In this document: one piece after another, positions 3,732 to 24,234 of the stretch
Numbering within the stretch: the first letter of the stretch is position 1
Layout of the letters: the number at the start of each line of letters is the position of its first letter
Source: a virus
DNA length: 29,686 nucleotides
IMG/VR virus record: IMGVR_UViG_3300025120_000341
Span: 1 to 29,686 of that record
Direction: 5' to 3' (one strand)
Program-made: the position numbers and the translations under genes
The notes under the pieces: model-generated
Seen by the model: only the letters and a program-made list of their open reading frames with translations
What the model was told of the DNA's origin: nothing
Databases searched by the model: none

Positions 3732-3767
3732 AAAAAGGGGGTTAATTAAATTAGCTCCTTTTTTTTT
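3732..3767 (+). terminator. Rho-independent terminator after NinG-like gene
   Basis: A 9-bp stem (3738-3746 with 3750-3758, including two G-U pairs) with a 3-nt loop is flanked by an A-run at 3732-3736 and a T-run at 3759-3767. It can close further through G3737-T3759 and the A/T runs. The T-run runs directly into the next promoter. Confidence 0.8.
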
Positions 3768-10049: not shown

Positions 10050-10681
10050 TAAAAGAAACTTATAAAGTAAAGTCTATAAAGAAAGAACTTTGTAAAGAAT
10101 GGTTATTATATAAACATTATGCTAAAAGAATACCCTCTATATCTTATGCTTTTGGTTTATTCGATGATAAAATAATGCAAGGCATATTGACTGTTGGTAA
10201 ACCTGCAAGTAATTCTTTATGTATAGGGGTTTGTGGTAAGAATAATTCTAAATATGTATATGAGTTAAATAGATTATGTGTAAATGATGGATTGAAAAAA
10301 AATATATTAAGTTATTTTGTATCACAATCTTTAAAAATGCTTAACAATATAATTTTAGTTAGTTATGCTGATACATTACACAATCATAATGGTTATATAT
10401 ATCAGGCTACTAATTGGATTTATACAGGTCTAACAAAACAAAGAACAGATATTGGTAGTGGTAATAATAAACATAGTAGGCATTATGATAAAAGTATAGA
10501 TTACAAAAAAAATAGAAAATTTAGAAGTTCCAAGCATAGATACATATATATTATAGCATCAAAAAAACGAAGAAAAAAATTGTTAAAAGAATTAAATTAT
10601 AAAATATATAAATATCCAAAAGGTCAAAATATAAACTACGATACGAGTTATAAAACAACAAACCAAACAGAATTATTTTAA
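10046..10681 (+). CDS. Mom-like DNA base-modification protein (GNAT-type)
   Basis: The protein has 211 residues. Conserved-looking blocks in order: EWLLYKHYAKRIPSISYAFG (18-37), VGKPASNSLCIGVCG (50-64), VYELNRLCVND (71-81), LSYFVSQSLKML (88-99), ILVSYADT (103-110) and YIYQATNWIYTG (117-128), then a basic C-terminus with KHRYIYI. This pattern recalls the Mom family, whose Mu member adds a methylcarbamoyl group to adenines and protects phage DNA from restriction; the fold is GNAT-like. The overlap with an Nmad1-like gene supports a DNA-modification module. The gene ends immediately at a late-promoter motif. The exact chemistry cannot be read. Confidence 0.65.
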   Translation: MIKETYKVKSIKKELCKEWLLYKHYAKRIPSISYAFGLFDDKIMQGILTVGKPASNSLCIGVCGKNNSKYVYELNRLCVNDGLKKNILSYFVSQSLKMLNNIILVSYADTLHNHNGYIYQATNWIYTGLTKQRTDIGSGNNKHSRHYDKSIDYKKNRKFRSSKHRYIYIIASKKRRKKLLKELNYKIYKYPKGQNINYDTSYKTTNQTELF

Positions 10682-10706
10682 AATTGCCAAAAAATTACGT
10701 TATATA
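10680..10706 (+). promoter_or_regulatory. Late-type bipartite promoter motif, copy 1 (terminase)
   Basis: AAAA at 10680-10683 (preceded by T), 13-bp spacer, ACGTTATATA at 10697-10706. It has the same spacing as four other copies. It stands between the Mom-like gene and the terminase block. The first ATG (10737) is 30 bp further, the only copy with room for a real leader. Confidence 0.65.
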
Positions 10707-10736
10707 TATAAATTGAATAAACAATAATATTTCAAT

Positions 10737-10871
10737 ATGGATTCTAAAAATGGAAACAGTCAACTTAATGAAGAAAGAAACAATTATAACAATAAGGTTT
10801 CAAGATTAAATATATTAGGAGAATGCAGAACTGTTAAATGGAATAAGCAAAGACGCTTTAGAACAATTTAA
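10737..10871 (+). CDS. Short ORF upstream of small terminase; possibly the N-terminal part of a frameshifted gene
   Basis: ATG 10737 opens a 44-codon frame that stops at TAA 10869-10871. It reads plausibly up to about 10820 (MDSKNGNSQLNEERNNYNNK, then VSRLNILGE) and then becomes atypical (CRTVKWNKQRRFRTI). From about 10822 the +1 frame, which is the frame of the terminase gene at 10882, reads a protein-like NAELLNGISKDALEQFKKHI but has no start codon. The simplest reading is one gene broken by an indel or a +1 frameshift near AGGAG at 10817-10821. The alternative is a genuine 44-aa peptide. Confidence 0.4.
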   Translation: MDSKNGNSQLNEERNNYNNKVSRLNILGECRTVKWNKQRRFRTI

Positions 10872-10881
10872 AAAACATATT

Positions 10882-11148
10882 ATGGATAATCGTAAAAACA
10901 ATGGAGGAGCAAGAGAAGGTGCAGGTAGACCTAAAAAAGCAGATGAATTAAAACTAATTGAAAAATTAGATTCATTAATAGACAATGACGAAGTTATAAA
11001 GACTTTAGGTAAACAAATATTAAAAGGAGATTCAAGAGCTATGAATTTATACTTTGGATATAGATATGGCAAACCTAAAGAATCAGTAGACATAACTTCA
11101 AGTGAAGGCTTGAACATAAACTTCAAAGACTTAATTAAGTTTAAGTGA
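10882..11148 (+). CDS. terS: Terminase small subunit
   Basis: The 88-residue product starts MDNRKNNGGAREGAGRPKKA, the Gly/Arg-rich 'GGAReGAGRPkK' lead typical of small terminases of Bacteroidetes phages. A helical middle follows, then LYFGYRYGKPKESVDITSSE, also typical ahead of the C-terminal segment that contacts the large subunit. It recognises phage DNA for packaging. The stop overlaps the GTG start of the large subunit. The same frame is open upstream to 10819 without a start codon, so the mature protein could be about 20 residues or more longer if a frameshift joins it to the 10737 ORF. Confidence 0.72.
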   Translation: MDNRKNNGGAREGAGRPKKADELKLIEKLDSLIDNDEVIKTLGKQILKGDSRAMNLYFGYRYGKPKESVDITSSEGLNINFKDLIKFK

Positions 11149-12350
11149 TTGAAATAAATAAAAAGTATTCACCTATTGCAGAATCAGATGGGAGGTACTT
11201 TATAGTAACTGGTGGTCGAGGATCTGGTAAATCATTTTCTGTAAACCTCTTATTAGTTCTTCTTACTTATGAAGCTGGACATACTATTCTATTTACTCGT
11301 TATACTTTATCTTCTACTTATATTTCTATTATTCCTGAATTTATTGAAAAAATAGAGATGCTTAAAAAGTATGATGACTTTCATATCACAAAAGATGAAA
11401 TAAGAAATAAGCGTTCAGGAAGCAAGATAATATTCAAAGGGATAAAAACTTCAAGTGGTGATCAAACAGCTAATCTAAAGTCATTACAAGGCGTTACAAC
11501 ATTTGTATTAGATGAAGCAGAAGAACTAACTAATGAAGATACATTTGACAAGATAGATTTATCAGTAAGACAATTAGGTAAACACAATAGGGTAATACTA
11601 ATATTGAATCCTGCAACTAAAGAACATTGGATCTATAAAAGATTCTTTGAAGATAAAGGAATACAAGAAAGTATAAACACAACTAAAGATAATGTTACAT
11701 ACATTCACACAACTTATAAAGACAATATTGAAAACCTTTCAGAAAGCTATTTAAACCAAATAGAAAACATTAAACAACGCAGACCACAAAAATACAAAAC
11801 CCAAATAATGGGAGGGTGGCTTGATAAAGCAGAAGGTGTAATATTTACTAACTGGCAAATAGGTAAATTTAAAAAAGTAGGTGTTAGTGTATTTGGTCAA
11901 GATTATGGGTTTAACGATCCAAACACATTAGTAGAAACTAATATAGATACTACAAGAAAGATTATTTATTTAAAAGAATGCTTTTACTTAAACGGATTAA
12001 CAACAACAGAAATAGCACGTTTGAATATGAAACACGCTACAGATAATTTAATAATTGGAGATGCAGCAGAAAAAAGATTAATCTATGAACTCAAACAAAA
12101 AGGATCTAATATAGTTTCTTCAATTAAAGGAGCAGGATCTATAACCTATGGGATCAGCTTATTACAAGACTATGATTTAATAGTAGACGAACAAAGTATA
12201 AATTTAATAAAAGAACTAAACAACTATAGTTGGCTTGAAAAGAAATCAAACACACCTATTGATAAATATAACCATTTAATAGATGCTATTAGATATGCAG
12301 TAAGCTACCAGCTACAGAACCCCAATAGGGGCAAATACTATATACAATAA
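11145..12350 (+). CDS. terL: Terminase large subunit (ATPase and nuclease)
   Basis: The protein has 401 residues, a normal length. The ATPase half carries Walker A GGRGSGKS (residues 23-30), Walker B TFVLDEAEEL (D123, E124) and the coupling motif LNPAT (154-158). The nuclease half has the acidic triad FGQDYGF (D253), IIGDAAEKRL (D306) and HLIDAIRYA (D380). This is the Terminase_3 type, cutting and pumping phage DNA into proheads. The start is GTG at 11145 in a GTGA overlap with the small-subunit stop; the next Met is at residue 72, inside the ATPase domain, so GTG is required. The whole block sits behind late motif copy 1. Confidence 0.93.
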   Translation: MIEINKKYSPIAESDGRYFIVTGGRGSGKSFSVNLLLVLLTYEAGHTILFTRYTLSSTYISIIPEFIEKIEMLKKYDDFHITKDEIRNKRSGSKIIFKGIKTSSGDQTANLKSLQGVTTFVLDEAEELTNEDTFDKIDLSVRQLGKHNRVILILNPATKEHWIYKRFFEDKGIQESINTTKDNVTYIHTTYKDNIENLSESYLNQIENIKQRRPQKYKTQIMGGWLDKAEGVIFTNWQIGKFKKVGVSVFGQDYGFNDPNTLVETNIDTTRKIIYLKECFYLNGLTTTEIARLNMKHATDNLIIGDAAEKRLIYELKQKGSNIVSSIKGAGSITYGISLLQDYDLIVDEQSINLIKELNNYSWLEKKSNTPIDKYNHLIDAIRYAVSYQLQNPNRGKYYIQ

Positions 12351-12451
12351 TGGAATGTAAAAAATGCAAACAGACAATGACTATATATTCAGGCAAAGAT
12401 AATAAAGACTACTACTACTGTAGAGAATGTGATATTATTGAATACGAATAA
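12350..12451 (+). CDS. Double-CxxC zinc-ribbon mini-protein, paralogue of the one at 3203
   Basis: The ORF is 33 residues, ATG 12350 (sharing one base with the terminase stop) to TAA 12449-12451. It reads MECKKCKQTM and YYYCRECD, giving C3/C6 and C24/C27. The spacing of knuckles is identical to the 40-aa protein at 3203-3325 (MECKKCK against MKCKKCK), so the two are probably paralogues. Likely a minimal zinc ribbon. Function unknown. The TAATG coupling to the terminase suggests coexpression with late genes. Confidence 0.6.
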   Translation: MECKKCKQTMTIYSGKDNKDYYYCRECDIIEYE

Positions 12452-12493
12452 ACTTTATTAACAGATTTGTTATTTATTTTGTATATTGCATAT

Positions 12494-12670
12494 ATGAAGT
12501 TAACAGAAGAACAAATTGAATTAGCAGAAACAGAACATACGTTTATGTTGATATTTGAACCTAACTCAAGAAGATATAGTAAGAAATTATGGAACTTATA
12601 TAAAATACAAGTATGGGTTACTTATAAAGATGGTAGGTTTTATAAAGCTGATAATAAAGGCTGGATATAA
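12494..12670 (+). CDS. Small protein, function unknown
   Basis: I choose ATG 12494 (MKLTEEQIELAETEH, 58 aa); an in-frame ATG at 12467 would add a hydrophobic, promoter-like AT-rich stretch and is less likely. The N-terminal helix is acidic; the rest (LIFEPNSRRYSKKLWNLYK, then VWVTYKDGRFYKAD) looks like a small beta-rich, basic, aromatic domain. No family recognised. It is flanked by AT-rich intergenic segments that carry promoter-like sequences and is probably its own short unit. Confidence 0.5.
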   Translation: MKLTEEQIELAETEHTFMLIFEPNSRRYSKKLWNLYKIQVWVTYKDGRFYKADNKGWI

Positions 12671-12686
12671 ATAACTTATTAAATAT

Positions 12687-12717
12687 TTTGTTAATTAAAT
12701 ATATTGTATTATATTAG
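12687..12717 (+). promoter_or_regulatory. Possible Bacteroidetes-type promoter
   Basis: TTTG at 12687-12690 and TATATTAG at 12710-12717 give -33/-7-like boxes with a 19-bp spacer; the -7 box has A in place of the second-last T. It shares the surrounding TTTTGTTAATTA sequence with the promoter region at 7299. It would serve the small gene starting at 12731 or 12758. Confidence 0.4.
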
Positions 12718-12757
12718 CTGTATAATTGCAATGAAGCAGTTATATAAACAAAACAAA

Positions 12758-13003
12758 ATGAACAAAATTAAATTTACTTATGATTCAAAGACTATATTAA
12801 TTAAAAAAGATAATGAAATAAGAGAAGATATAGAAACTTGTAAAAATATATTGTCAGATTTAGAAAAATTAATTAGTGATAGAGAAAAGCAAGATGCTGA
12901 AAACCAACAATGGTGGGATGATAGAAAAAAGTTTACTAATGATTGGATGAATTTAATAGATAAATTAAACGATAAATTAATAGAAAAAAATAAATTAACT
13001 TAA
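12758..13003 (+). CDS. Small acidic/basic helical protein
   Basis: I prefer ATG 12758 (MNKIKFTYDSKTILI, 81 aa); in-frame ATGs at 12731 and 12704 add MKQLYKQNK and a hydrophobic stretch overlapping the putative promoter. After a short strand pair, the protein is helical with heptad-like spacing (IETCKNILSDLEKLISDREK) and a Trp-rich patch (QQWWDDRKKFTNDW). Possible coiled coil. Function unknown. Directly followed at 3 bp by the GC-rich structured element. Confidence 0.5.
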   Translation: MNKIKFTYDSKTILIKKDNEIREDIETCKNILSDLEKLISDREKQDAENQQWWDDRKKFTNDWMNLIDKLNDKLIEKNKLT

Positions 13004-13005
13004 CA

Positions 13006-13096
13006 GGGGGGTCGACAAAAAAATCAAGGTGGATAGCTATAAGGTGTACAACTTTTAACCATTTCAACGGGGCAGGAGAGCCAAAACAGACCCTCC
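13006..13096 (+). ncRNA. Candidate structured RNA or cis-acting DNA element, GC-rich
   Basis: A 91-nt stretch of about 47% G+C (43 of 91 bases) stands out in a very AT-rich genome and contains no convincing ORF. Its ends pair: 13006-13013 (six G then TC) with 13089-13096 form an 8-bp helix with one G-U pair. Inside are a small hairpin GGC/GCC with an AGGAGA loop (13072-13083) and two direct AAGGTG repeats at 13026-13031 and 13041-13046. It is followed at 15 bp by a membrane-protein gene. It could be a small RNA, a leader element, or a packaging or protein-binding site about 0.65 kb after terminase. It does not fit a tRNA. Confidence 0.35.
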
Positions 13097-13111
13097 AATA
13101 TTAAAATAAAT

Positions 13112-13276
13112 ATGGAACAACAAGAACTTATAAAATTTATTAGATTTTTAGCAAGTAGTTTAATTTGCTTTTGCATTATATTATTCTGCTTAACCTTTGC
13201 AATTATTTTTTTATTTGCAACTGTAGATATACTTCATCAAGCGTATAATCATTTTATACTTCCTTATGAATTATAA
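13112..13276 (+). CDS. Small membrane protein
   Basis: The ORF has 54 residues, ATG 13112 to TAA 13274-13276. After a polar start (MEQQELIKFIRFL) a long hydrophobic segment covers about residues 14-38 (SLICFCIILFCLTFAIIFLF), with three Cys, then a short polar end. One transmembrane helix is clear. It heads a cluster of three small membrane proteins between terminase and tail genes. An inner-membrane role such as superinfection exclusion or host takeover is possible, but nothing specific can be seen. Confidence 0.5.
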   Translation: MEQQELIKFIRFLASSLICFCIILFCLTFAIIFLFATVDILHQAYNHFILPYEL

Positions 13277-13341
13277 TAGATCAAAGTTTTTACACAACTT
13301 AAATAAGACAAAAAGAATAAAATCATTTAATAGAAATAAAG

Positions 13342-13467
13342 ATGAAAAAAAGACAATACAGATCAAATCAGGGTCGTAACCCTAAAAGTGAAGAAGCTAT
13401 GTTTAAAGCTATTAAAATAGCATTCATAGCATTAATAACAGTAACATTAATTCAAATCATATTATGA
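13342..13467 (+). CDS. Very small membrane protein
   Basis: The ORF has 41 residues, ATG 13342 to TGA 13465-13467, overlapping the next gene by ATGA. A basic N-terminus (MKKRQYRSNQGRNPK) is followed by an amphipathic-to-hydrophobic helix (KAIKIAFIALITVTLIQIIL), a typical tail-anchored or single-pass inner-membrane peptide. Translational coupling to the following membrane protein supports its reality. Function unknown. Confidence 0.45.
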   Translation: MKKRQYRSNQGRNPKSEEAMFKAIKIAFIALITVTLIQIIL

Positions 13468-13637
13468 AACATTATTACGAAGTAGACGGACAGCGTAGAT
13501 ATTACATTGCAAAGAAAATATCTAAAAAAGAAAACAAAGAATCATTCTTAAAAATATTAGGTTATTCAGCTGTTGGCTGGGCTGTATTTTATGTGGCTAT
13601 GTTTTTTTTCTTACATTTGTTAGAAACAATAGTATGA
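13464..13637 (+). CDS. Small membrane protein
   Basis: The ORF has 57 residues, ATG 13464 to TGA 13635-13637, with ATGA overlaps at both ends. A basic, aromatic N-terminus (MKHYYEVDGQRRYYIAKKI) precedes a hydrophobic segment at about residues 29-53 (LKILGYSAVGWAVFYVAMFF). Predicted single-pass, N-terminus in the cytoplasm by the positive-inside rule. Part of the same membrane cluster; function unknown. Confidence 0.5.
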   Translation: MKHYYEVDGQRRYYIAKKISKKENKESFLKILGYSAVGWAVFYVAMFFFLHLLETIV

Positions 13638-13909
13638 GAAACAAAATGCAGAACTTACAGGATTTAGAATACACTAACAACGCAATACTACTTGGTGAAC
13701 TTATAAACAAGTGGGTAAAATCTAAACCAAAGAATGTAGAACTATTAAGATTCCAACAAGCGTTTATAGACAATTCAATTTATGTAGCAGGATTACAAAA
13801 TGATTTAACAGCTTGTAAAATGGCTAATAGTGATTACAGGGAACAAAAGAACCAAGCCTTGTATGATTTAGAATTAATTAAAGAAGAAGTAAAATATTAC
13901 GATGAATAA
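13634..13909 (+). CDS. Small helical protein
   Basis: The protein has 91 residues, starting in an ATGA overlap with the membrane protein before it. A second in-frame Met at residue 5 could also be the start. The sequence is helical throughout, with a likely coiled coil in residues 50-88 (VAGLQNDLTACKMANSDYRE and onwards) and an acidic end. It overlaps the next zinc-ribbon ORF by 8 bp. No family recognised. Confidence 0.6.
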   Translation: MRNKMQNLQDLEYTNNAILLGELINKWVKSKPKNVELLRFQQAFIDNSIYVAGLQNDLTACKMANSDYREQKNQALYDLELIKEEVKYYDE

Positions 13910-14024
13910 CCATTGGCTTTATGCCACACTTCCAGAAGATGAACCACAACACAAATGTATTGAATGTGAAAGACCAATACATAAAGAAGGGTATTGTAGT
14001 CATCAATGCGAATATATAGATTAA
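13902..14024 (+). CDS. Cys4 zinc-ribbon mini-protein
   Basis: The ORF has 40 residues, ATG 13902 to TAA 14022-14024. It reads HKCIECERPI and GYCSHQCEYID, giving C19/C22 and C32/C36 with a nearby His: a probable single zinc site of the 'treble-clef or knuckle' kind. Unlike the ribbons at 3203 and 12350, the first pair is in mid-protein. It is the last gene before a terminator. Function unknown. Confidence 0.5.
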   Translation: MNNHWLYATLPEDEPQHKCIECERPIHKEGYCSHQCEYID

Positions 14025-14046
14025 TAATTTTGTTTTGTTTAAGTCG

Positions 14047-14079
14047 AAAAAGGGTGTTAGAAATAGCACCTTTTTTTTT
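14047..14079 (+). terminator. Rho-independent terminator before the tail operon
   Basis: AAAAAGGGTGTTA (from 14047) pairs with TAGCACC and the following T-run around a GAAA loop at 14060-14063, a stable GNRA-type tetraloop. Nine T follow (14071-14079). The late motif begins 6 bp later. Confidence 0.82.
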
Positions 14080-14084
14080 ATACT

Positions 14085-14111
14085 AAAATTCTAATTTAAT
14101 TACGTTATATA
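14085..14111 (+). promoter_or_regulatory. Late-type bipartite promoter motif, copy 2 (tail operon)
   Basis: AAAA at 14085-14088 (preceded by T), 13-bp spacer, ACGTTATATA at 14102-14111. The next ATG begins at 14115, only 3 bp after the motif. It lies directly after a strong terminator, as a promoter for a new unit should. Confidence 0.7.
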
Positions 14112-14114
14112 AGT

Positions 14115-14765
14115 ATGAAAGCTAATATTAACGTACCTACTGAACTTAATGAAATTACATTAAAGCAATATCAGAAGTTCCTAAAAGTACAAGATAGCAA
14201 ACAGAACAACACTTTTTTACAAACTAAAATGATAGAAATATTTTGCAATGTTAAAATGCAAGATGCCTTAAATATAAAGCTATCAGATGCAGATCGTATA
14301 GCAAGTTTAATATCTGAAATGTTTGAACAGAAGCCAGATCTTGTAAAAAGTTTCTGGTTAAATAATGTTGAATACGGATTTGTTCCTGATCTTGATGAAA
14401 TAACATTAGGTGAATATATTGACCTTGACACTTATATGGGTGAATGGGAAAATATACAAATAGCAATGAATGTATTATACAGACCTATAAAACAGAAGTT
14501 AGGGGAAAAATATTTAATAGAAGAATACGATCCAGATACAAAAGACAAATTAATTAATATGCCTATGGATGCAGTATTTGGTTCTATTATTTTTTTTTAT
14601 CGTTTAGGGATCGAATTATCGAAAACTATGATGAATTATTTGGAGAACGAGGGGGGGAATCTACAAGTTCAAGGGCTGGATTTTCTAAAAAATGGGGATG
14701 GTATTCAAGCCTTTACGGACTCGCTGGAGGAGATATTACAAGATTTGAAGATATCACCAAATTAG
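14115..14765 (+). CDS. Tail assembly chaperone (short form)
   Basis: The protein has 216 residues. Its N-terminal part (VPTELNEITLKQYQKFLK) and LDEITLGEYIDLDTY, LYRPI and FFYRLG blocks resemble the tail assembly chaperone-position protein of Bacteroidetes phages, equivalent to lambda gpG. It coats the tape measure before tail-tube polymerisation. The gene ends NGDGIQAFTDSLEEILQDLK, a family-like tail. In the last 110 bp a second, -1 frame also codes for a conserved-looking segment (see 14657-14851), so this is probably the unshifted product of a G/GT pair. It is the first gene after late motif copy 2, with ATG 3 bp from it. Confidence 0.7.
   Translation: MKANINVPTELNEITLKQYQKFLKVQDSKQNNTFLQTKMIEIFCNVKMQDALNIKLSDADRIASLISEMFEQKPDLVKSFWLNNVEYGFVPDLDEITLGEYIDLDTYMGEWENIQIAMNVLYRPIKQKLGEKYLIEEYDPDTKDKLINMPMDAVFGSIIFFYRLGIELSKTMMNYLENEGGNLQVQGLDFLKNGDGIQAFTDSLEEILQDLKISPN
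14651..14657 (+). promoter_or_regulatory. Probable -1 ribosomal frameshift slippery site (G7)
   Basis: Seven consecutive G are read as GAG GGG GGG AAT, i.e. G-GGG-GGG in the X-XXY-YYZ register required for tandem -1 slippage. After the slip the frame continues GAA TCT ACA without a stop to 14851. An upstream T8 run (14591-14598) also fits the register but would replace family-like sequence. Confidence 0.6.
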
Positions 14766-14851
14766 AAATGCATAAGTGTTTAATGATGTTAGCATTTATG
14801 AAAGACAAAAACGAATTAGAATCAAAACAAATAAAAAGTAAATTCAAATGA
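14657..14851 (+). CDS. -1 frame extension of the tail assembly chaperone (gpT-like)
   Basis: The -1 frame is open from 14558 (after a TAA) to TGA 14849-14851 but has no ATG, GTG or TTG before the Met in KLEMHK, so it needs a frameshift to be used. Its sequence is protein-like: KKWGWYSSLYGLAGGDITRF, then KLEMHKCLMMLAFMKDKNE and a Lys-rich end, matching the 'W..y..iy.La..d..kf' pattern of tail chaperone extensions. A slip at G7 gives 181 + 64 = 245 residues. As with lambda GT, the long form would recruit tail-tube subunits to the tape measure. Coordinates are those of the extension only. Confidence 0.6.
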   Translation, partial: ESTSSRAGFSKKWGWYSSLYGLAGGDITRFEDITKLEMHKCLMMLAFMKDKNELESKQIKSKFK

Positions 14852-15318
14852 GCCAACAAGGAATAAGGGGTTTTTATCAATTAACTGAAACTATAAAAGA
14901 CAAGCTACTTGCAGACGTTAATTGCAATACTGTAACAACAGGAGATATATACGATGTAAATTTAAACAAGCAAGACATATTTCCTTTAGCACATATTATA
15001 GTAAACAACGTAATACAACAAGAACAAACATTGACTTTTAACATAAGCATCTTGGCTATGGATATTGTAGATCAATCTAAAAGTGAAACAACGGATATAT
15101 TTACAGGGAACAATAACGAACAAGATATTCTTAATACACAACTGGCAGTATTAAACAAAGTAATACAAAGTTTAAGAATGGGAACATTACACCAAGACAA
15201 ATACCAATTAGATAGTCCAGTAAGTTGTGAACCATTTTACGATAGGTTTGAAAACCAATTAGCAGGATGGACTGCAACTATGGATATATTAATTTACAAT
15301 GACATAAACATCTGTTAA
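14848..15318 (+). CDS. Probable tail/neck completion protein
   Basis: The protein has 156 residues, starting in an ATGA overlap with the -1 extension stop, which itself argues that the extension is translated. The N-terminus GIRGFYQLTETIKDKLLADVNCNTVTTGDI, a middle of beta strands (LAHIIVNNVI, TLTFNISILAMD) and C-terminal ATMDILIYND follow the pattern of phage neck or tail-completion proteins (minor capsid/tail joining type). The position, between chaperone and a gp10-like protein, is compatible. Exact attachment site is not known. Confidence 0.55.
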   Translation: MSQQGIRGFYQLTETIKDKLLADVNCNTVTTGDIYDVNLNKQDIFPLAHIIVNNVIQQEQTLTFNISILAMDIVDQSKSETTDIFTGNNNEQDILNTQLAVLNKVIQSLRMGTLHQDKYQLDSPVSCEPFYDRFENQLAGWTATMDILIYNDINIC

Positions 15319-15851
15319 TGAATTTTCAGAATATAAATAAAGCATTAAATGATTTTGGCAAGTACGTTGTACAGCAGTCAAGATCACGTTTAACAAAAGG
15401 AAATCAAGGTGGTGGTGCTTTATATGATTCTATTAGATACACATTAGATGAAGAACAGAAAGGATTTATACTTGACTTCTATATGGAAGATTACGGTAAG
15501 TTCCAAGATCAAGGTGTTAAGGGTGCAAATCCAAGTTTAATTAAAGGTGGTAAACAAAAAGCACCAACAAGTAAGTTTAGCTATAAGCAAAAGATGCCAC
15601 CAATGCAACCATTAAGAAATTGGGCGCAAAGTAAGAATATAAGATTTAGAGATAAAGAAGGCAAATTTAAAAAGGGCAGTTATAAGAGTATGGCATTTGT
15701 ATTACAAAGAAGTATATACGCACAAGGTTTTAAACCTACATACTTTTTTACTAAACCATTTGAAGCTGCATTTAAAAGATTACCAGAAGAATTAATAAAA
15801 GATTTTATGTTAGACATAGAAAAAGGAATAATATTAGGAACTAAAAAATAA
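15318..15851 (+). CDS. Probable HK97 gp10-like neck/tail completion protein
   Basis: The 177-residue protein has a basic N-terminal helix (LNDFGKYVVQQSRSRLTKGN) followed by GGGALYDSIRYTLD, then a strand-rich middle with DYGKFQDQGVKGAN and a C-terminal helix. The 'short helix, then a L.dSi.y...e..f.l.f....YgkFqdqG..g' layout matches gp10-like head-tail joining proteins of siphoviruses. It shares one base with the preceding stop. This would close the head-tail interface or cap the tail tube. It is a position-supported inference. Confidence 0.55.
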   Translation: MNFQNINKALNDFGKYVVQQSRSRLTKGNQGGGALYDSIRYTLDEEQKGFILDFYMEDYGKFQDQGVKGANPSLIKGGKQKAPTSKFSYKQKMPPMQPLRNWAQSKNIRFRDKEGKFKKGSYKSMAFVLQRSIYAQGFKPTYFFTKPFEAAFKRLPEELIKDFMLDIEKGIILGTKK

Positions 15852-15854
15852 ACA

Positions 15855-16853
15855 ATGGCAGCAATAGCATTAAGAAGCCCACAATATAAAACAGCATTAG
15901 CAGATACTGGAACACCATTATCAGCAAAAATTACTATTAGTATAGATGGCACAATAGAATATACATTAGTAAAACTTACTTCTTTAAATCAAAATATGCT
16001 TTGGGAAATATCTCAACTATGTAGGGATTTTATAAACATAACATTTGATGGTAGTTATGTAGGAGAAACATTAGCTATTATTTCTACTTTAACTTCACAC
16101 GCTTCAACAGATGGAACTGGAACTGCTTTAACAACAGATACATTTACAGACGTAGGTTATGATGGTTATGGAACTTTTATGGAAGGTTCTAATCCAACAG
16201 TACCTTTTGGTAGTAGACCAACGTGGCTTATAAGTGGAGATCCTAATCATACGGGTATTAATGATGAATACTATATTTATGTTCCTAACAATGCAGCAGG
16301 GTCTATTCCTTATATAATTGCAAACGAAAGTATGGGCTATCAAAGTTATAATACAACACAATATGAAATAACAGGTAGTCCAGCAGGTGTTAAAATGAAT
16401 ATAAATAGAATTGATTGTACAAAATATGGAGATGGTCATAAAATTACATTTGTAAATAAATATGGTGCATTACAAGATTTATGGTTCTTTTTAAAATCTG
16501 TAAACACAACTAATAAAAAACAAGAACAATTTCAAAGAGTTGTTATTAATACAGCAGGAGTTTATAGCCCTTATGTACATACTAAACAAGATTATAATAC
16601 AGTTGCAAACACAAGCATAACATTAAGTAGTGGATATTATCCTGAATGGGCTAACCAATGGTTTGAGCAATTACTATTGTCAGAACAAGTTTGGCTTACA
16701 AGACTTGACCCAACCAATCCTAATTCAACACAATATGTTCCAGTCAATGTAAAGAAAAATAGTATGATACAAAAAACATCATTAAATGAAAGGTTAATAG
16801 ATTACACATTTGATTTTGATATGTCATTTGATTACATAAACAACATTAGATAA
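15855..16853 (+). CDS. Conserved tail protein, probably distal tail/baseplate
   Basis: The protein has 332 residues. It starts MAAIALRSPQYKTALADTGT and is beta-rich and Gly/Thr/Asn-rich, ending DFDMSFDYINNIR. The pattern, with RDFINITFDG and the closing 'YTFDFDMSFDYIN', is one I recall in Bacteroidetes phages at this position, without biochemical work. It is coupled to the 785-aa protein (TAATG) and precedes the tape measure, unlike classical orders where Dit/Tal follow it. It may be the distal tail ring or a tail-tip protein. Confidence 0.5.
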   Translation: MAAIALRSPQYKTALADTGTPLSAKITISIDGTIEYTLVKLTSLNQNMLWEISQLCRDFINITFDGSYVGETLAIISTLTSHASTDGTGTALTTDTFTDVGYDGYGTFMEGSNPTVPFGSRPTWLISGDPNHTGINDEYYIYVPNNAAGSIPYIIANESMGYQSYNTTQYEITGSPAGVKMNINRIDCTKYGDGHKITFVNKYGALQDLWFFLKSVNTTNKKQEQFQRVVINTAGVYSPYVHTKQDYNTVANTSITLSSGYYPEWANQWFEQLLLSEQVWLTRLDPTNPNSTQYVPVNVKKNSMIQKTSLNERLIDYTFDFDMSFDYINNIR

Positions 16854-19210
16854 TGCAAAAACTTCAACTATATATTAGTGATCAAAGAATTGATTTATTT
16901 AAAGACGAACAGGTATCATTTAACCAGTCTATACAAAACATTAAAGATCCTGCAAAGATATTTACTGAATTTACTCAAACATTTACAATTCCAGCTTCAA
17001 AAGCTAATAATCAAGTATTTGAACACTATTATAATTTTAATATCGTAGGGGGTTTTGATGCAAGAAACAAAGTAGACGCAAACATAGAACTTAATAACGT
17101 AGCTTTTAAGCAAGGTTATGCAAGGCTTGAAGGTGTTGATATGAAACTAAATAAAGTGTACGCATATCGTATTACATTCTTTGGTCAAACTGTAAACATA
17201 AAAGATATATTAAGAGAAGATAAATTAGGAAATTTAAGTGATTTAAATCAATACAATTTAAACTATGATGCTGCTACTGTAAAAGCAAGATTACAAAGTG
17301 CATCTGGTGCAATATTATGCCCTCTTATAACTTCTGGTGCGAGTGGAGAAGAATCAAGATTATTTTATAATAGTAATAATTCAGCACATACAGATAATAC
17401 AGGCAACTTATATTATCATACAGGATCAAGTAATGATCACGGTGTTTTATATTCAGATTTAAAATATGCTATAAGACTTTATGAAATAGTAGAAGCTATC
17501 AAAGTTACCTATCCATCTTTAGTGTTTACAGATGATTTTTTTAGTACAAGCAATGCAGAATTTTACAATCTTCATATGTGGCTACATAGAAAGAAAGGGA
17601 GTGTAGCTCCTGCATCACAAGTAACTACATTTCCTACTTTAGTAGATGGTTTTGGAATACCAACCCCAAGTAATGAAACAGGAATGATTAATGGGTCTGG
17701 TTTACAAATATTCGGTACTGCATTACCGACAATACAACAACAATTAACATTAACACCTGCTAATAATACTACTGAATATGATGTAATAATAAACCGAAAT
17801 GGTACTGTATGGTTTACAAGGTCTAATTTAACTGGTCAACAAGTATTTGATGCAAGTGATATGACTAATATGGATGCTGCAACATATACAATAGTAATAC
17901 AAACTACTACTACGCTTGACTTTAATTTAGTTAGGTGGGATTTGTCAGGATATTTTCAAGGAGCAGGTTCAGGGTGGTCTGAATTTTGGGAAACAACAGT
18001 TTTTAGTGCAAGTGCTACATTTCAATTTGTTATTACAGAACAAATACCTGATATGAAGATTATAGATTTTCTAACAGGAATATTTAGAATGTTTAATTTA
18101 ACTGCTTTTTATGTAAGTAATAGACAAGATGCAGATTATGGTAAAATAAAAGTACAAAAATTAGATGATTTTTATCTTGCAGGAACAAGTTATGATATAA
18201 GTGAATATGTAGATACAAATACAAGTCAAGTAAATGTAGCATTACCATATAAAGAAATATCATTTAGCTATGAAGGAACAGGAACACTACTTGCTTTACA
18301 ATACGAACAGTTACAAGGCAAGTCTTGGGGTGCAGAAAAATTTACAGGAAACGCAACAGTAGGCAATAACTTTGATGCACCAAATCCAACATATAAAGTA
18401 ACGCTACCTTTTGAGCATATACAAATGGAACGTCTTGTGAATGTTAATCCTAATTTAGCTCCACCTCCAATAACAACAATACAATATGGTTATTTTGTTG
18501 ATGATAATTTAGAAGCATATTTTGGTAAGCCTTTAATATTTTATCCTATTTTACAAACAAGTGGAACAGAAATATCATTTAGAGATTCTGCAACAACACA
18601 TTCCCCTTTAACTTCTTATTTTGTTCCAAGTAATAGTTTAAGTTTGAGTTCTGCTACAAGTACAATTAATACTAACTTTTATTTAGAAGTAAACGAATAT
18701 AGTTTAGATACAACTTTTACAGGTACTTTATTTGAAGAACATTATTTAGAATACATACAAGATATTTTTAATAGTAAAAGAAGATTAACAAAATTAAAAG
18801 CATATTTACCTTTAAAGATTATTTACAATATTAATATGAATGACAAGGTAGTTATTAATAATCAAGGTTATTTAATAAACAACTTAACTACTAATTTAAA
18901 TACAGGTGAAAGTTCAATGGAATTATTGAATGATGATACTACTAATTTTTTAACACTAACAAATATTGGACTTTTTGGAAGTCAAACTAATACTTATTTC
19001 TATTCAAGTTTAATTGGTAATGCAGAAAATTTAGCAATAGGAAATGTTATATATACTAATAGTGCGTTAACAACAACATTGTCTGCAGGAACATATTATC
19101 AAGATGCTTCAAGTGCAAGTACAACACATTGTTCACAAAGTGGTTATATAATGACTATGGTTATCAATTCATCTGGGGTAATAACTGCAATTGGTTGTTA
19201 CCTACCTTAA
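16853..19210 (+). CDS. Large tail-tip/baseplate protein
   Basis: The protein has 785 residues. The N-terminus (LQLYISDQRIDLFKDEQVSF, then IFTEFTQTFTIPASKANNQV) and the section KVYAYRITFFGQTVNIKDIL are typical of a large tail-tip or hub protein common in Bacteroidetes phages. A beta-rich middle has Thr/Asn-rich loops, and a C-terminal part ends in a Ser/Thr-rich region. No peptidase or glycosidase motif is apparent. By size and neighbours (conserved tail protein before, tape measure after) it probably forms the central tail tip that carries fibres. Alternative: receptor-binding protein. Confidence 0.6.
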   Translation: MQKLQLYISDQRIDLFKDEQVSFNQSIQNIKDPAKIFTEFTQTFTIPASKANNQVFEHYYNFNIVGGFDARNKVDANIELNNVAFKQGYARLEGVDMKLNKVYAYRITFFGQTVNIKDILREDKLGNLSDLNQYNLNYDAATVKARLQSASGAILCPLITSGASGEESRLFYNSNNSAHTDNTGNLYYHTGSSNDHGVLYSDLKYAIRLYEIVEAIKVTYPSLVFTDDFFSTSNAEFYNLHMWLHRKKGSVAPASQVTTFPTLVDGFGIPTPSNETGMINGSGLQIFGTALPTIQQQLTLTPANNTTEYDVIINRNGTVWFTRSNLTGQQVFDASDMTNMDAATYTIVIQTTTTLDFNLVRWDLSGYFQGAGSGWSEFWETTVFSASATFQFVITEQIPDMKIIDFLTGIFRMFNLTAFYVSNRQDADYGKIKVQKLDDFYLAGTSYDISEYVDTNTSQVNVALPYKEISFSYEGTGTLLALQYEQLQGKSWGAEKFTGNATVGNNFDAPNPTYKVTLPFEHIQMERLVNVNPNLAPPPITTIQYGYFVDDNLEAYFGKPLIFYPILQTSGTEISFRDSATTHSPLTSYFVPSNSLSLSSATSTINTNFYLEVNEYSLDTTFTGTLFEEHYLEYIQDIFNSKRRLTKLKAYLPLKIIYNINMNDKVVINNQGYLINNLTTNLNTGESSMELLNDDTTNFLTLTNIGLFGSQTNTYFYSSLIGNAENLAIGNVIYTNSALTTTLSAGTYYQDASSASTTHCSQSGYIMTMVINSSGVITAIGCYLP

Positions 19211-19219
19211 AATAAAATT

Positions 19220-19363
19220 ATGATAAAAAATATATTAGAATTATTAAAAGTAGTAGATGGAGAAACTGAAACAATTAGAATTGCACAAGGCAAATATAAA
19301 TTAGCCGAAACCTTTAAAGAAGGATTTAAACAAATTAAACAAGAAATAAAATGGCAGAAGTAA
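19220..19363 (+). CDS. Small protein between tail-tip and tape-measure genes
   Basis: The ORF has 47 residues, ATG 19220 to TAA 19361-19363, overlapping the tape-measure start by 13 bp. It reads MIKNILELLKVVDGETETIR, a central strand pair, then a Lys-rich helix (ETFKEGFKQIKQEIKWQK). It is soluble and coding-like in composition. It fills the only gap between two large tail genes. Function unknown. Confidence 0.5.
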   Translation: MIKNILELLKVVDGETETIRIAQGKYKLAETFKEGFKQIKQEIKWQK

Positions 19364-21102
19364 TACAAGTTCAGTTAGATATAGAAACTAAAAAGGCTCA
19401 AAAAGGTGTAGACAACCTAACAGACGAAATAGTTAATCTAAACAAAGAAGTAGCACAAGGAAATAAAGAAACAGCTAAAAGTTTGAAAGGTGTTGAAAAA
19501 GCATCTGATAAAACTGCAGGAGGTGTTAAGAAAATAGGTGGTGCATTAAAAGCATTAGGTATTGGGCTTATTATAGCTGGGTTTGCAAAGTTTGTAGAAG
19601 TGTTAAATGAAAATCAAAAGGTAGCTGACTTTTTTTCTATTACGTTTGAAGCATTATCATTAGCATTTAATGATTTTTTTAATTTTATATTATCTAATAC
19701 TGGTGCAATAACTAACTTTTTTAAAGCAGCCTTTGATGATCCTGTTCAAAATTTTATTGACTTTGGTATTGCAATAAAAGAAAATGTTATTGAAAGAATA
19801 CAATCCACAATAGACACGTTAGGTTTTTTAGCAGAAGCAGTAGTTAAAGTATTCAAAGGAGATTTTGCTGGTGCATTAGATGCAGCTAAAAATGCAGGTA
19901 AAGAATTAGTAGACGTTGTAACAGGTGTTGACGATTCATTTGATAAAACTGCTGAAGTTGTTACAAAAGTTGCTACTGCAACATCCAATTATGTAAAAGA
20001 AACAATTAAAGGTGCAACAGAAAATGTTAATCTTGCTAAAACAGCAGAATTAGCTGCAGTTGCTAATCAAGGTTTAATTGAAAAATATGATCTACAAGCA
20101 GAAAAATTAAGACAAGTAAGAGATGAAGAAAGAAATACTATAGCAGATCGTAAAAAAGCAAATGATGAATTAAATGCAGTATTAGACGAACAAGAAAAAA
20201 CAATGTTAGCTAATGCAAATGCTATACTTAATGCAGCACAAGCACAATTTGATAAAAATGGTAATGATGAAAATCAAATAGCTTTATTAGAAGCACAAAA
20301 TGAATTGTTAGCAGTACAAGCACAAGTAGCAGGTTTTAGATCAGAACAAAAAGCAAATGATTTAGCATTAGATAGAGAACAAAAGGAATTGAATCAATCT
20401 ATAAGTGATGCCGAAGCAGAAAGAAATAAAGCACAATCTGAATTTGTTGCAGAACAAATAGAAAACGATTATTTAAAATTACAAGCACAATTAGATATAG
20501 CAGAAAAAGAAGGAGAAATAGAATCAAAAAGATTAGAAGAAAAAAGGAATCAATACCAACAAGGAACACAAGCCTATGTAGATGCTAACAATGAACTATT
20601 AGCATACCAACAAGAAAACGCTAATACACAAGTTCAAATAGAAAAAGATTTAAATAAAAACAAAAAACAATTAACTACACAAGCCTTAACTGATATGGCT
20701 ACTATTGTAGGTAAAAACTCAAAGTTTGGTAAAGCAATAGCAATAGTACAAGCTATTAGAGATACTTATGCAGGTGCAAACAAAGCATTAGCACAAGGTG
20801 GTATATTCGGATTCATAGGTGCAGCAGCAGTAATTGCAGGAGGTATTGCAAACGTAAAAACAATAACATCAACACCAGAACCAACACCACCATCAGGAGC
20901 ATCAGTAGGTGGGAGTGGATCAGTACCTGCTATGCCATCAGCACCACCTGCATTTAATGTAGTAGGTCAAGGTGAAACAAGTCAATTAGCAGATGCAATA
21001 GGGGGTCAAGCAAATGAACCTGTAAGAGCATACGTTGTAAGCAATGATGTAACAACTGCACAAGGGCTTGAAAGAAATATTGTAGAAGGTGCAACAATAT
21101 AA
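19351..21102 (+). CDS. Tape measure protein
   Basis: The protein has 583 residues. It is mostly long alpha-helix rich in Ala/Gln/Glu/Lys, with hydrophobic segments at about 62-82 (IGGALKALGIGLIIAGFAKF) and 95-115, then an extended coiled coil (~230-440). A small, Gly/Ala-rich hydrophobic C-terminal region at about 483-508 (GGIFGFIGAAAVIAGGIANV) is followed by a Pro-rich linker. This layout is characteristic of siphovirus tape measures, which set tail length and are ejected with the DNA. At roughly 0.15 nm per residue the tail would be near 85-90 nm (inference). It follows the chaperone pair by six genes. Confidence 0.82.
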   Translation: MAEVIQVQLDIETKKAQKGVDNLTDEIVNLNKEVAQGNKETAKSLKGVEKASDKTAGGVKKIGGALKALGIGLIIAGFAKFVEVLNENQKVADFFSITFEALSLAFNDFFNFILSNTGAITNFFKAAFDDPVQNFIDFGIAIKENVIERIQSTIDTLGFLAEAVVKVFKGDFAGALDAAKNAGKELVDVVTGVDDSFDKTAEVVTKVATATSNYVKETIKGATENVNLAKTAELAAVANQGLIEKYDLQAEKLRQVRDEERNTIADRKKANDELNAVLDEQEKTMLANANAILNAAQAQFDKNGNDENQIALLEAQNELLAVQAQVAGFRSEQKANDLALDREQKELNQSISDAEAERNKAQSEFVAEQIENDYLKLQAQLDIAEKEGEIESKRLEEKRNQYQQGTQAYVDANNELLAYQQENANTQVQIEKDLNKNKKQLTTQALTDMATIVGKNSKFGKAIAIVQAIRDTYAGANKALAQGGIFGFIGAAAVIAGGIANVKTITSTPEPTPPSGASVGGSGSVPAMPSAPPAFNVVGQGETSQLADAIGGQANEPVRAYVVSNDVTTAQGLERNIVEGATI

Positions 21103-21106
21103 ATGC

Positions 21107-21133
21107 AAAATTATTAATTAAATACGTTATATA
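21107..21133 (+). promoter_or_regulatory. Late-type bipartite promoter motif, copy 3 (head protease)
   Basis: AAAA at 21107-21110 (preceded by C), 13-bp spacer, ACGTTATATA at 21124-21133. ATG 21138 follows 4 bp later. Copy 4 at 21889 shares TGCAAAA in the upstream half. Confidence 0.7.
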
Positions 21134-21137
21134 GTAT

Positions 21138-21737
21138 ATGAAAATAGTCGAATTAATTTTAGATGAAGATCAAGATGCTTCTGGAATCGAAGCAATATCA
21201 ATAGTCGAAAATCCAGCTATTGAAGAAGATTTTATTGCACTTAAAAGTGATGAAATTAAATTAGCAGAAGTTTCAAAAGAAAAAAAAATATTAATGGGGG
21301 CTTTACTAATCCCAAATAAGCCTATATATCGCAAAAATGGTGAAGATGAATATTATATATACTTCTCTAAAGATACAGTCTTAAAAGCCTCCCAAATGTA
21401 CTTAACTAAAGGCAATCAAAACAATTCAACATTAGAGCACCAACATTCATTAAGTGGTTTAAGTTTGGTAGAATCTTGGTTAGTTGAAGATGAAGTTCAC
21501 GACAAGTCAAGAAAGTATGGTATGAATGTACCAGTAGGAACTTGGATGGGTGCTGTAAAAGTAAACAATGATGAAATCTGGAACGAATATGTAAAAACAG
21601 GTAAAGTAAAAGGGTTTTCAATAGAAGGTTACTTTGCAGATAAAATGGAACGACCTAAAGATCCTGTAGGTTTATCAGAAGATAAAGAAGCAGATAAATT
21701 ATTAAACCAAATAAAAGACATTTTAATAAATGAGTAG
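21138..21737 (+). CDS. Head maturation protease, XkdF-like
   Basis: The protein has 199 residues. The core KKILMGALLIPNKPIYRKNG, then EYYIYFSKDTV, STLEHQHSL (H101), LVESWLVEDEV, VPVGTWMGAVKV and KGFSIEGYF (S161) matches the XkdF-type phage serine protease family: a His early and a Ser late in the fold as catalytic residues. It would process scaffold and capsid during prohead maturation. It directly precedes a small Cys-rich gene, the scaffold-like gene and the capsid gene, the expected order. It is the first gene after late motif copy 3. Confidence 0.82.
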   Translation: MKIVELILDEDQDASGIEAISIVENPAIEEDFIALKSDEIKLAEVSKEKKILMGALLIPNKPIYRKNGEDEYYIYFSKDTVLKASQMYLTKGNQNNSTLEHQHSLSGLSLVESWLVEDEVHDKSRKYGMNVPVGTWMGAVKVNNDEIWNEYVKTGKVKGFSIEGYFADKMERPKDPVGLSEDKEADKLLNQIKDILINE

Positions 21738-21882
21738 ACAAAACACTTTTATTCGTGGAATAGCAAGTCCTAAAAACTCGCAACGTGCTTGTCTATGTAA
21801 AGATAAAAATACTTATTCAAGAAAATGTTGTGATGGTTCTTTATGGGCTCAAGGGATAGGAGTTATATCCAGAACAGTTTGA
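21730..21882 (+). CDS. Cys-rich mini-protein with CLC..KCCDG signature
   Basis: The ORF has 50 residues, ATG 21730 (overlapping the protease end by 8 bp) to TGA 21880-21882. RACLCKDKNTYSRKCCDGSL is followed by WAQGIGVI; four Cys (C21, C23, C33, C34) cluster in 14 residues. I recall this signature from small proteins adjacent to head genes in Bacteroidetes phages. It may bind a metal or form disulfides in the virion. Function unknown. Conservation across phages makes it likely real. Confidence 0.6.
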   Translation: MSRQNTFIRGIASPKNSQRACLCKDKNTYSRKCCDGSLWAQGIGVISRTV

Positions 21883-21888
21883 AAATGC

Positions 21889-21915
21889 AAAAAAATAAAT
21901 TAAACACGTTATATA
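21889..21915 (+). promoter_or_regulatory. Late-type bipartite promoter motif, copy 4 (scaffold and capsid)
   Basis: AAAA at 21889-21892 (preceded by C, in TGCAAAA), 13-bp spacer, ACGTTATATA at 21906-21915. ATG 21923 is 7 bp downstream. It gives the capsid genes a promoter separate from the protease. Confidence 0.7.
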
Positions 21916-21922
21916 TATAATT

Positions 21923-22582
21923 ATGAAATCAACTGAAATGTTAAACCAAATCAAGACGCTTTTAAACATAGAAGTAAAACTTGAAGAACAAAAATTAGAG
22001 AACGGTACTCGTGTAGAAGCAGAATCGTTTGAAAAAGGTAAAGAAATCTTTATTCTTACTGATGACGAAAAAGTTGCTATGCCTGTAGGGGAATACCTAC
22101 TGGAAGATGGTAGACTTGTAGTTATTGCAGAAGAAGGAATCATAGATGACGTTAGAGAAGTATCTGACGAAGTTCCACAAAAGGAAGAAGAATCTAAAGA
22201 TGAAACAGAAGATTTAGAAGAAAAAGAAGAAGAAATGGATGAAGAAGCTGATGTACAAGACTGGGAAGGTATGGAAAAAAGAATTAAAAATCTTGAAGAT
22301 GCTATTTCTGATCTTAAGTCTAAAATAGGTGAAAAAGATATGAAAGAAGATGAAGTTGAAATGCAAGAAGACGAAGTTTCAAGACAGCCTAAATCAAGAA
22401 CAGTTAAAGAAGAATTTAACAAAGAAGTTAACGAACAATTAAAAGAAGAATTATCTAAACCTGCTGCTGCTCCAATAAAGCACAATCCAGAAGGAGGTAA
22501 TGCTAAAAAAGAAAATTTTAGAATAGCGCCAAAAAGACGCCCTTCTACAATGGATATAATCTTAAATCAATTAAATAAATAA
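21923..22582 (+). CDS. Scaffold-like head protein
   Basis: The protein has 219 residues. An N-terminal part with strand-rich character (GKEIFILTDDEKVAMPVGEY) is followed by a highly acidic Glu/Asp/Lys stretch (~90-150) with a coiled-coil segment (WEGMEKRIKNLEDAISDLKS), then a Pro/Lys/Arg-rich end (PKRRPSTMDIIL). Acidic, helical and located between protease and capsid genes: the typical signature of a capsid scaffold. The C-terminal basic tail could bind the capsid protein. It also resembles small head proteins with a barrel N-terminus. No catalytic motif. Confidence 0.6.
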   Translation: MKSTEMLNQIKTLLNIEVKLEEQKLENGTRVEAESFEKGKEIFILTDDEKVAMPVGEYLLEDGRLVVIAEEGIIDDVREVSDEVPQKEEESKDETEDLEEKEEEMDEEADVQDWEGMEKRIKNLEDAISDLKSKIGEKDMKEDEVEMQEDEVSRQPKSRTVKEEFNKEVNEQLKEELSKPAAAPIKHNPEGGNAKKENFRIAPKRRPSTMDIILNQLNK

Positions 22583-22593
22583 AATAAACAATT

Positions 22594-23541
22594 ATGCCAC
22601 AACCAACTATTACTACTACTTATGCTGGAGAATTTGCAGGTAAGTACATTGCTGCTGCTTTATTAAGCGGTAACACGTTAAGTCAAGGTGCTATTGAAAT
22701 TAAGCCAAACGTAAAGTTTAAAGAAGTTATTAAAAAAGTAGCTACTTCTGGTTTAATTGTAGATGAATCTTGTGATTTCACGAATGCTGGAACTGTAACT
22801 CTTACTGAAAGAATTATACAGCCAGAAAATTTCCAAGTTAACCTTGAATTATGTAAAACACCTTTCGAATCTGACTGGGGTGCTGTATCAATGGGCTATT
22901 CAGCTTTTGATAACTTACCACCTGACTTTGCTTCTTTCTTAATTGCACACGTTGCAAAAGAAGTTGCTGCTTCAACTGAAAATAATGTCTGGCAAGGAAA
23001 TCTTGGTGGCGCACAAGCTGGAGAATTTAACGGATTCACAACTTTAATGGCTGCTGATGCAGATGTAATTGATGTTGCTGCTGCTGTTGTTGATTCTGCT
23101 AACGTAGTTGCTGAATTAGGTAAGATAGTAGATGCTATTCCTTCTACACTTTATGGTAAAGAAGATTTATTTATCTATGTATCACAAAACATTGCTAAAG
23201 CATACGTTAGAGCATTAGGTGGATATTCTGCTATCACAAACGCACAAGGTGGTGGTGTTGCAGGAGGTATTGACAATAGAGGTACTTTATGGTACGGAGG
23301 TCAAGAAAACCTTTCTATTGATGGAGTTAAAATCTTTGTTGCCAATGGATTACCAAGCAATTACGCTGTTGCTGCAGAAAGATCTAACTTATACTTTGGA
23401 ACTGGATTAATGTCTGACTACAATCTTGTAAAATTGATTGATATGGCTGATATTGACGGAAGTAAAAACGTAAGAGTAATTATGAGATTTACTGCTGGAG
23501 TACAATACGGAATAGGATCTGATATAGTTCTTTATTCTTAA
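22594..23541 (+). CDS. Major capsid protein
   Basis: The protein has 315 residues. It opens MPQPTITTTYAGEFAGKYIA and then shows an HK97-like alternation of strands and helices: NLELCKTPFESDWG, a helix SFLIAHVAKEVAASTENNVW, the Gly-rich GGAQAGEFNGFTTL, a long segment AYVRALGGYSAITN and a final RFTAGVQYGIGSDI. Size, gene order (protease, scaffold, MCP), a strong downstream terminator and the high-expression late motif upstream all support it. There is no obvious N-terminal scaffold (delta) domain, consistent with a separate scaffold gene. Confidence 0.8.
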   Translation: MPQPTITTTYAGEFAGKYIAAALLSGNTLSQGAIEIKPNVKFKEVIKKVATSGLIVDESCDFTNAGTVTLTERIIQPENFQVNLELCKTPFESDWGAVSMGYSAFDNLPPDFASFLIAHVAKEVAASTENNVWQGNLGGAQAGEFNGFTTLMAADADVIDVAAAVVDSANVVAELGKIVDAIPSTLYGKEDLFIYVSQNIAKAYVRALGGYSAITNAQGGGVAGGIDNRGTLWYGGQENLSIDGVKIFVANGLPSNYAVAAERSNLYFGTGLMSDYNLVKLIDMADIDGSKNVRVIMRFTAGVQYGIGSDIVLYS

Positions 23542-23562
23542 TAAATTAAATTAACCAAAAAT

Positions 23563-23598
23563 AAGGGTAGGTGGGTTATTGCCTACTTACCCTTTTTT
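23563..23598 (+). terminator. Strong rho-independent terminator after major capsid gene
   Basis: A 13-bp stem (23563-23575 with 23582-23594, two G-U pairs) has a 6-nt loop (TTATTG) and a T-run to 23598. It may limit read-through into the next genes and keep the capsid mRNA abundant. Confidence 0.85.
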
Positions 23599-23616
23599 AA
23601 TAAAAAAATATAAACT

Positions 23617-24144
23617 ATGGCTTGTACATTAAACACAGGTAGAAAATTACCTTGTAAAAGTGCCTTTGGTGGCATTAAATCTGCTTTGTTTGCTGATTTT
23701 GGAACTATTAGTGCTATTCAAGTAGACGGAACAACAAAACAGGTAACAACACTAACTAATACTGGTGATTGGTTTAAATACGATGTTAAAGGTAATTCTT
23801 CACTTGAAACAACTGTAACAAGTTCAAGAGAAAACGGAACTACTTTTTATACTCAAACTTTAAATTTAACTTTAACATACCTTGATGCTAAAACTCAAGC
23901 AGAATTGCAAGATATAGCAGTTGCAAGACCTTATGTTATAGTTGAAGATTATTACGGTAATTTCTTTTTGTGTGGTTACGAAAATGGATGTGAACTTACA
24001 TCTGGAACTACAGTAACAGGAGCTGCAGCAGGAGATCTTTCAGGATTTACTATTTCTATGGAAGCAATGGAAGAAACTGCACCATACTTTTTAGATTCTA
24101 CAGTTGTACCTACTGCATCTGCAGTTGTCATTGTACCGAACTAA
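23617..24144 (+). CDS. Probable major tail (tube) protein
   Basis: The protein has 175 residues. It starts MACTLNTGRKLPCKSAFGGI and is beta-rich, with SSLETTVTSSRENGTTFYTQ, VEDYYGNFFLCGYENGCELT and GAAAGDLSGFTISMEAMEE. This 'EvTitssrenGTTfyeq.l' and 'GdlsGftltftgmE' layout is one I associate with tail-tube proteins of Bacteroidetes siphoviruses, and no other tail-tube candidate is present in the window. It is a single-gene unit between two terminators, consistent with a protein needed in many copies. No promoter of the late type was found directly before it. Annotation is by family recall and context. Confidence 0.6.
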   Translation: MACTLNTGRKLPCKSAFGGIKSALFADFGTISAIQVDGTTKQVTTLTNTGDWFKYDVKGNSSLETTVTSSRENGTTFYTQTLNLTLTYLDAKTQAELQDIAVARPYVIVEDYYGNFFLCGYENGCELTSGTTVTGAAAGDLSGFTISMEAMEETAPYFLDSTVVPTASAVVIVPN

Positions 24145-24164
24145 TAATATTAGTATTTAAAATT

Positions 24165-24191
24165 AAGCATCCTTTGGGGTGCTTTTTTTTT
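24165..24191 (+). terminator. Rho-independent terminator after tail-tube gene
   Basis: An 8-bp stem (24165-24172 with 24177-24184, one G-U pair) has a TTTG loop and is followed by T to 24191. Late motif copy 5 starts 17 bp later. Confidence 0.8.
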
Positions 24192-24207
24192 GCATTAACA
24201 TTTCTAC

Positions 24208-24234
24208 AAAATAACTTATTTCTTACGTTATATA
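24208..24234 (+). promoter_or_regulatory. Late-type bipartite promoter motif, copy 5 (portal block)
   Basis: AAAA at 24208-24211 (preceded by C), 13-bp spacer, ACGTTATATA at 24225-24234. ATG 24239 is 4 bp downstream. As with copy 2, a terminator lies immediately upstream. Confidence 0.7.

Follow-up and report, generated by a model that had tools for sequence, protein, structure and literature searches.

Phage sigma factors with late promoters of their own are already known from T4 (gp55) and SPO1 (gp28 and gp33/34), whose proteins redirect the host core polymerase to middle and late genes. The locus examined here is comparable to these in that a phage-made sigma factor would redirect the host core to phage promoters that follow a consensus of their own, but differs in that this sigma factor resembles two-domain ECF sigmas in its predicted fold and in that the late mRNAs are predicted to be nearly leaderless. 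Furthermore, the T4 late promoter consists of TATAAATA, whereas the promoter described below combines a CGTTATA box with a -35 part. In bacteria, ECF promoters with a CGT box at -10 have been reported in Flavobacterium psychrophilum (motif SM6), where, in contrast to the phage sites, they serve a cellular regulon of type IX secretion and other genes (PMC9723704). The Nonlabens phages P12024S/L (Inhavirus) share the late gene order of the present locus, the block being homologous in P12024S, and encode a homologue of its sigma factor with the annotation Sigma-70 region 2; the annotation examined carries no promoter features. The titles and abstracts searched on the motif, on phage ECF sigmas and on Bacteroidetes phage promoters held nothing on this system.

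The window is a stretch of 29,686 nucleotides (IMG/VR record IMGVR_UViG_3300025120_000341, positions 1 to 29,686) from a tailed phage, the host of which is probably a marine Bacteroidetes. We consider it probable that a phage ECF-type sigma factor, acting with the host core polymerase, serves five late promoters in this window, four of which would give rise to near-leaderless late mRNAs.

Five Two-Part Sites Precede the Late Operons

The ten-base element ACGTTATATA occurs five times on the plus strand of the window and is absent from the minus strand (0.06 copies expected), at 10697-10706, 14102-14111, 21124-21133, 21906-21915, and 24225-24234, and a count of five was never reached in shuffled sequence. 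YAAAA precedes it at exactly 13 bases in five of five sites, as TAAAA in the first two and CAAAA in the last three. The sequence-only reading, which had described this pattern and reported no further exact copy of the ten-base half, was borne out by the scan of both strands; its coordinates designated real sites but began one base late, the 28-base sites starting at 10679, 14084, 21106, 21888, and 24207. Its view that the sites are not a copied repeat also holds, since the spacers differ among all five, which rules out copying as their origin. When the two-part pattern was allowed zero or one mismatch, no sixth place was found in the window, position 21332 having two mismatches. A scoring matrix trained on relatives only and then run over the window gave 21.4-31.1 bits for the five sites and 10.3 bits for the next-best place; on shuffled sequences, 0.025 matches exceeded 16 bits.

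All five candidate promoters lie on the plus strand, recognized by motif and matrix and, from the second onward, also by the upstream regions of orthologues. Late promoter 1 (10679-10706), whose -35 part overlaps the stop codon of a Mom-like ORF, precedes a 44-aa ORF (10737), terS (10882), and terL (11145). Late promoter 2 (14084-14111) precedes the lead gene of the tail block (ATG 14115), late promoter 3 (21106-21133) an XkdF-like protease with a Peptidase_S78_2 match (ATG 21138), late promoter 4 (21888-21915) a putative scaffold gene (ATG 21923) and a capsid-like gene (22594), and late promoter 5 (24207-24234) a putative connector (ATG 24239) and the portal gene (24664). Two sites had been described as lying right behind terminators: for late promoter 5, the terminator scan returned a plus-strand terminator-like hairpin with T-run at 24165-24192 (stem 24165-24184), whereas the one just before late promoter 2 (about 14052-14079, plus strand; GGGTGTTAGAAATAGCACC followed by T9) is directly visible in the sequence yet absent from the scan list.

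Several other features of this region were recorded. The Mom-like protein (10046-10681; Pfam Mom, 5e-34) suggests phage DNA modification. Just 3' of late promoter 1, the terS leader contains an inverted repeat (ATTGAA/TTCAAT, 10712-10736), the arms of which change together in relatives (GATTGAA/TTCAATT, GATTGAT/ATCAATT, and TTTTTGA/TCAAAAA) and which may be either an operator or an RNA hairpin; folding of the wider region showed nothing unusual (z -0.39). The 44-aa ORF between this promoter and terS (10737-10868) is conserved in some relatives. The portal-like ORF bears a DUF3721 match (5e-8) at residues 411-446 (25894-26001), within a long C-terminal extension.

The anatomy of the site was derived from 42 non-redundant sites. 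Their alignment was anchored on CGTTA, which is therefore fixed by the selection. In these sites, C or T followed by AAAA occupies -19 to -15, the middle two A's being conserved at 98-100%, and CGTTA is followed by TATA (81-95% per base), while the A+T-rich spacer holds little else that is informative. The resulting AAAA-N14-CGTTATA, with two conserved parts, a CGT in the -10 part and near-fixed spacing, has the layout of ECF-type promoters. Among the plus-strand matches listed for TAnnTTTG, the -7 box of host sigma-A promoters, none fell on the five sites, in line with the earlier remark that the motif differs from this Bacteroidetes promoter. Elsewhere in the window, a candidate host-type early promoter, TTG-N20-TAATTTTG, was found at 3766-3796 (plus strand) with an ATG 20 nt downstream, as a consensus match only; a comparison with relatives did not show an early promoter of the TAnnTTTG type to be conserved. 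Escherichia coli-type sigma-70 promoters were also considered and rejected, being no more frequent in the region than by chance (72 found vs. 88 expected).

Conservation in Related Phages

Relatives were gathered through the terminase and sigma proteins, the motif playing no part in their selection. Across 80 terminase loci, the motif was found 143 times in the forward and never in the reverse orientation. Thirteen longer records (G001-G013), reached through terminase loci and searched whole, contained from three to seven copies, exactly five in eight of them, always confined to one strand per record. One of these records (G013, 53 kb; L296 and L297) carries two full late promoter sets and represents either two joined related genomes or an assembly artefact.

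For the operon-leading orthologues, many of which are just 40-60% identical, the 60 bases upstream were taken regardless of content and distinct sequences were counted, with 0.043 CGTTA expected per 60 bases. CGTTA was present in 105 of the 106 distinct regions upstream of the lead genes in four of the five blocks, namely the tail lead gene (49/50), the protease (23/23), the scaffold (17/17), and the connector (16/16), and in 49 of 59 upstream of terS; a search of related phages for the motif before late genes, named earlier as a check on the late-promoter claim, thus supports it. Tail-gene upstream regions from later-fetched loci, a few of them on contigs already counted, had CGTTA in 20 of 20 cases. 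The regions upstream of operon-internal genes contained none (0/114: second tail gene 0/70, capsid 0/17, tape measure 0/15, portal 0/12), and those of early genes had it in 0/32, 1/97, 3/92 (the sigma gene itself), and 8/82 (NinG). A generic site count on later sigma-bearing loci, which is a weak test, gave 66 forward and 3 reverse sites against 35 for a control pattern.

The occurrence of the motif before the same operon leaders in dozens of relatives, on one strand, about five times per genome and at none of the operon-internal genes, together with the lack of any TAnnTTTG match, strongly supports the five sites as putative phage-specific late promoters, which is the best reading of these sequences and agrees with the original proposal. 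That proposal had missed the likely agent, an ECF-type sigma factor encoded at 5630-6112, as well as how very close the sites lie to the start codons.

Distance to the Start Codon

At late promoter 2, a gap of 8 nt separates CGTT from the ATG (14103-14117, plus strand), marking a predicted near-leaderless mRNA start, and the gaps at the following sites are 9 nt (21125), 12 nt (21907), and 9 nt (24226). In relatives, four of the five positions have for the most part 8-12 bases here, with 8 as the commonest value. Bacterial genes have been classed as leaderless by a TA-like -10 signal located 10-12 bases ahead of the start codon (PMC3160421), and the distances at these four positions (mostly 8-12 nt) would place them in this class. 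From this proximity, the late mRNAs at the four sites should be nearly leaderless: if CGTT lies near -12 to -9, transcription would start on the AUG itself or no more than about 6 bases from it. The terminase operon alone should have a leader, very roughly of 15-35 bases; in relatives, the terS start codon lies 25-42 bases from CGTT, yet the CGTTATATA form is unchanged there. Leaderless mRNAs amount to 5.5% in F. psychrophilum (PMC9723704), and 5' UTRs under 10 nt to about 3.7% in Bacteroides thetaiotaomicron (PMC7366714); with such messages so few in Bacteroidetes, it would be unusual for a late programme to be led by them.

A Probable ECF-Type Sigma Factor in the Early Block

A divergent ECF-type sigma factor of 160 aa, encoded in the early block (5630-6112, plus strand), is proposed to read the late promoters. 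Its match to Pfam Sigma70_r2 is weak (15.8 bits, below the 24-bit cut-off), and its homologues gp33 of P12024S (25.2) and L161 (24.6) exceed that cut-off; 24 of 33 members of the family match Sigma70_r2 at E up to 0.1, and the window protein matches the phage sigma family phrog_1740. The C-terminus gave generic helix-turn-helix matches only and none to Sigma70_r4, and the model contains C-terminal helices. The AlphaFold2 model is locally confident (pLDDT 85.9, pTM 0.48), and its top Foldseek matches in the PDB were ECF sigmas with a probability of about 1.0, E being below 0.001 for the first only; TM-scores of 0.35-0.46 leave the domain placement uncertain. By its model, this ORF is predicted to have an ECF fold with only two sigma domains.

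The sigma gene was found in 20 of 20 listed terminase-found loci having at least 6.5 kb upstream. Neither it nor the exact motif occurs in the outgroup phages RAP44, Harreka_1, and BS-TP2 (50 kb of 57.6 kb covered in the latter), which have a related terminase. Among loci fetched by motif alone, many of which are short fragments, 4 of 75 had the sigma gene, a count that is uninformative given the fragments. Relatives are abundant in viral contigs (at least 577 confirmed), and the scan of bacterial genomes returned one 3.5-kb contig, a Campylobacterales MAG contig with a 44% identical homologue (L318, 1230-1670) that probably reached the bin as viral contamination. A tblastn search of the phage records with the window sigma gave no match, and the P12024S sigma matched P12024S/L alone. 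Two loci encode a second divergent sigma-like protein beside the first (L125, 11239-11808; L128, 8281-8850).

The sigma of P12024S is just 25% identical to that of the window, and the promoter form in P12024S/L is shifted, with AAAACAAA as the -35 part, about 13 bases, and CGTTAATA as the -10 part. The CGTTA box lies 8 nt before the ATG at six late genes: CGTTA-N7-ATG occurs seven times forward in P12024S, where 0.5 would be expected, and six of these copies stand at the annotated starts of late genes. Seven contigs with P12024-type sigmas showed the same variant, with CGTTAA in 17 of 20 sites by our count, against CGTTAT in 95% of sites of the window's group. In a third lineage, with a sigma about 30% identical, CGTTATA still stands just before some ATGs. 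The box is thus family-wide, and its details follow the sigma clade.

Proposed Mechanism and Alternatives

In the proposed mechanism, the host RNA polymerase with the main host sigma would transcribe the early block including the sigma gene at 5630-6112, and the phage sigma would then bind the host core polymerase and redirect it to the five late sites, with YAAAA serving as the -35 and CGTTATA as the -10 element. The lead genes of four operons would be translated from leaderless or nearly leaderless messages. The motif with its conservation and position, the homology of the sigma, its presence together with the promoter, and the promoter form particular to each clade are observed; we infer the temporal order of expression, the start sites, the leaderless translation, and the host group, and that the window sigma reads the five promoters.

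The agent could be another one. A host ECF sigma, or the host polymerase with a phage activator, might read the late promoters, leaving some other role to the phage sigma-like protein. Several ECF sigmas exist in Flavobacteria, F. psychrophilum itself possesses CGT-box promoters (PMC9723704), and the phage encodes other possible DNA-binding proteins, a ParB-like one (8214) and a DnaA C-terminal-like one (8998), the latter a small ORF (8998-9531) with E 3e-7, just under the cut-off. In all covered relatives, however, the promoter is found together with the phage sigma, and the clade whose sigma is divergent has another promoter form, so that we regard this alternative as unlikely. This joint presence could nevertheless reflect common descent without contact, as both share one phylogeny.

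Several near-identical promoter copies before late blocks are typical of phages with their own RNA polymerase, which would fit the five copies found here. A T7-type or other phage-encoded polymerase is nonetheless barely credible, given that the largest ORF of the early block (282 aa) is far too small and that the two-part layout, CGT box at -10 included, is in keeping with a sigma factor; T7-type promoters were rejected as a candidate on the former ground. The short distance between motif and start codon, 8-12 nt in four of the five cases, would also suit a signal for translation initiation or in the mRNA leader, rather than a promoter. We judge this very improbable, since the form kept at terS despite its distant start codon separates the motif from translation initiation, with YAAAA at a constant distance it is a DNA signal of two parts, and operon-internal genes lack it.

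Late transcription by the phage sigma remains the preferred reading. The same arrangement is shared by a large group of uncultured ocean phages, for which it would provide a testable regulator-promoter pair. YAAAA-N13-ACGTTATATA before an ATG may serve as a signature for locating the late operons of such phages, the isolated phages P12024S/L offer a laboratory system, and small phage sigma-promoter pairs are possible expression tools for Bacteroidetes. There is about an even chance that these phages constitute a large marine family with its own ECF-type sigma factor and mostly leaderless late operon heads, in which the switch to late transcription would also alter the translation of the virion genes.
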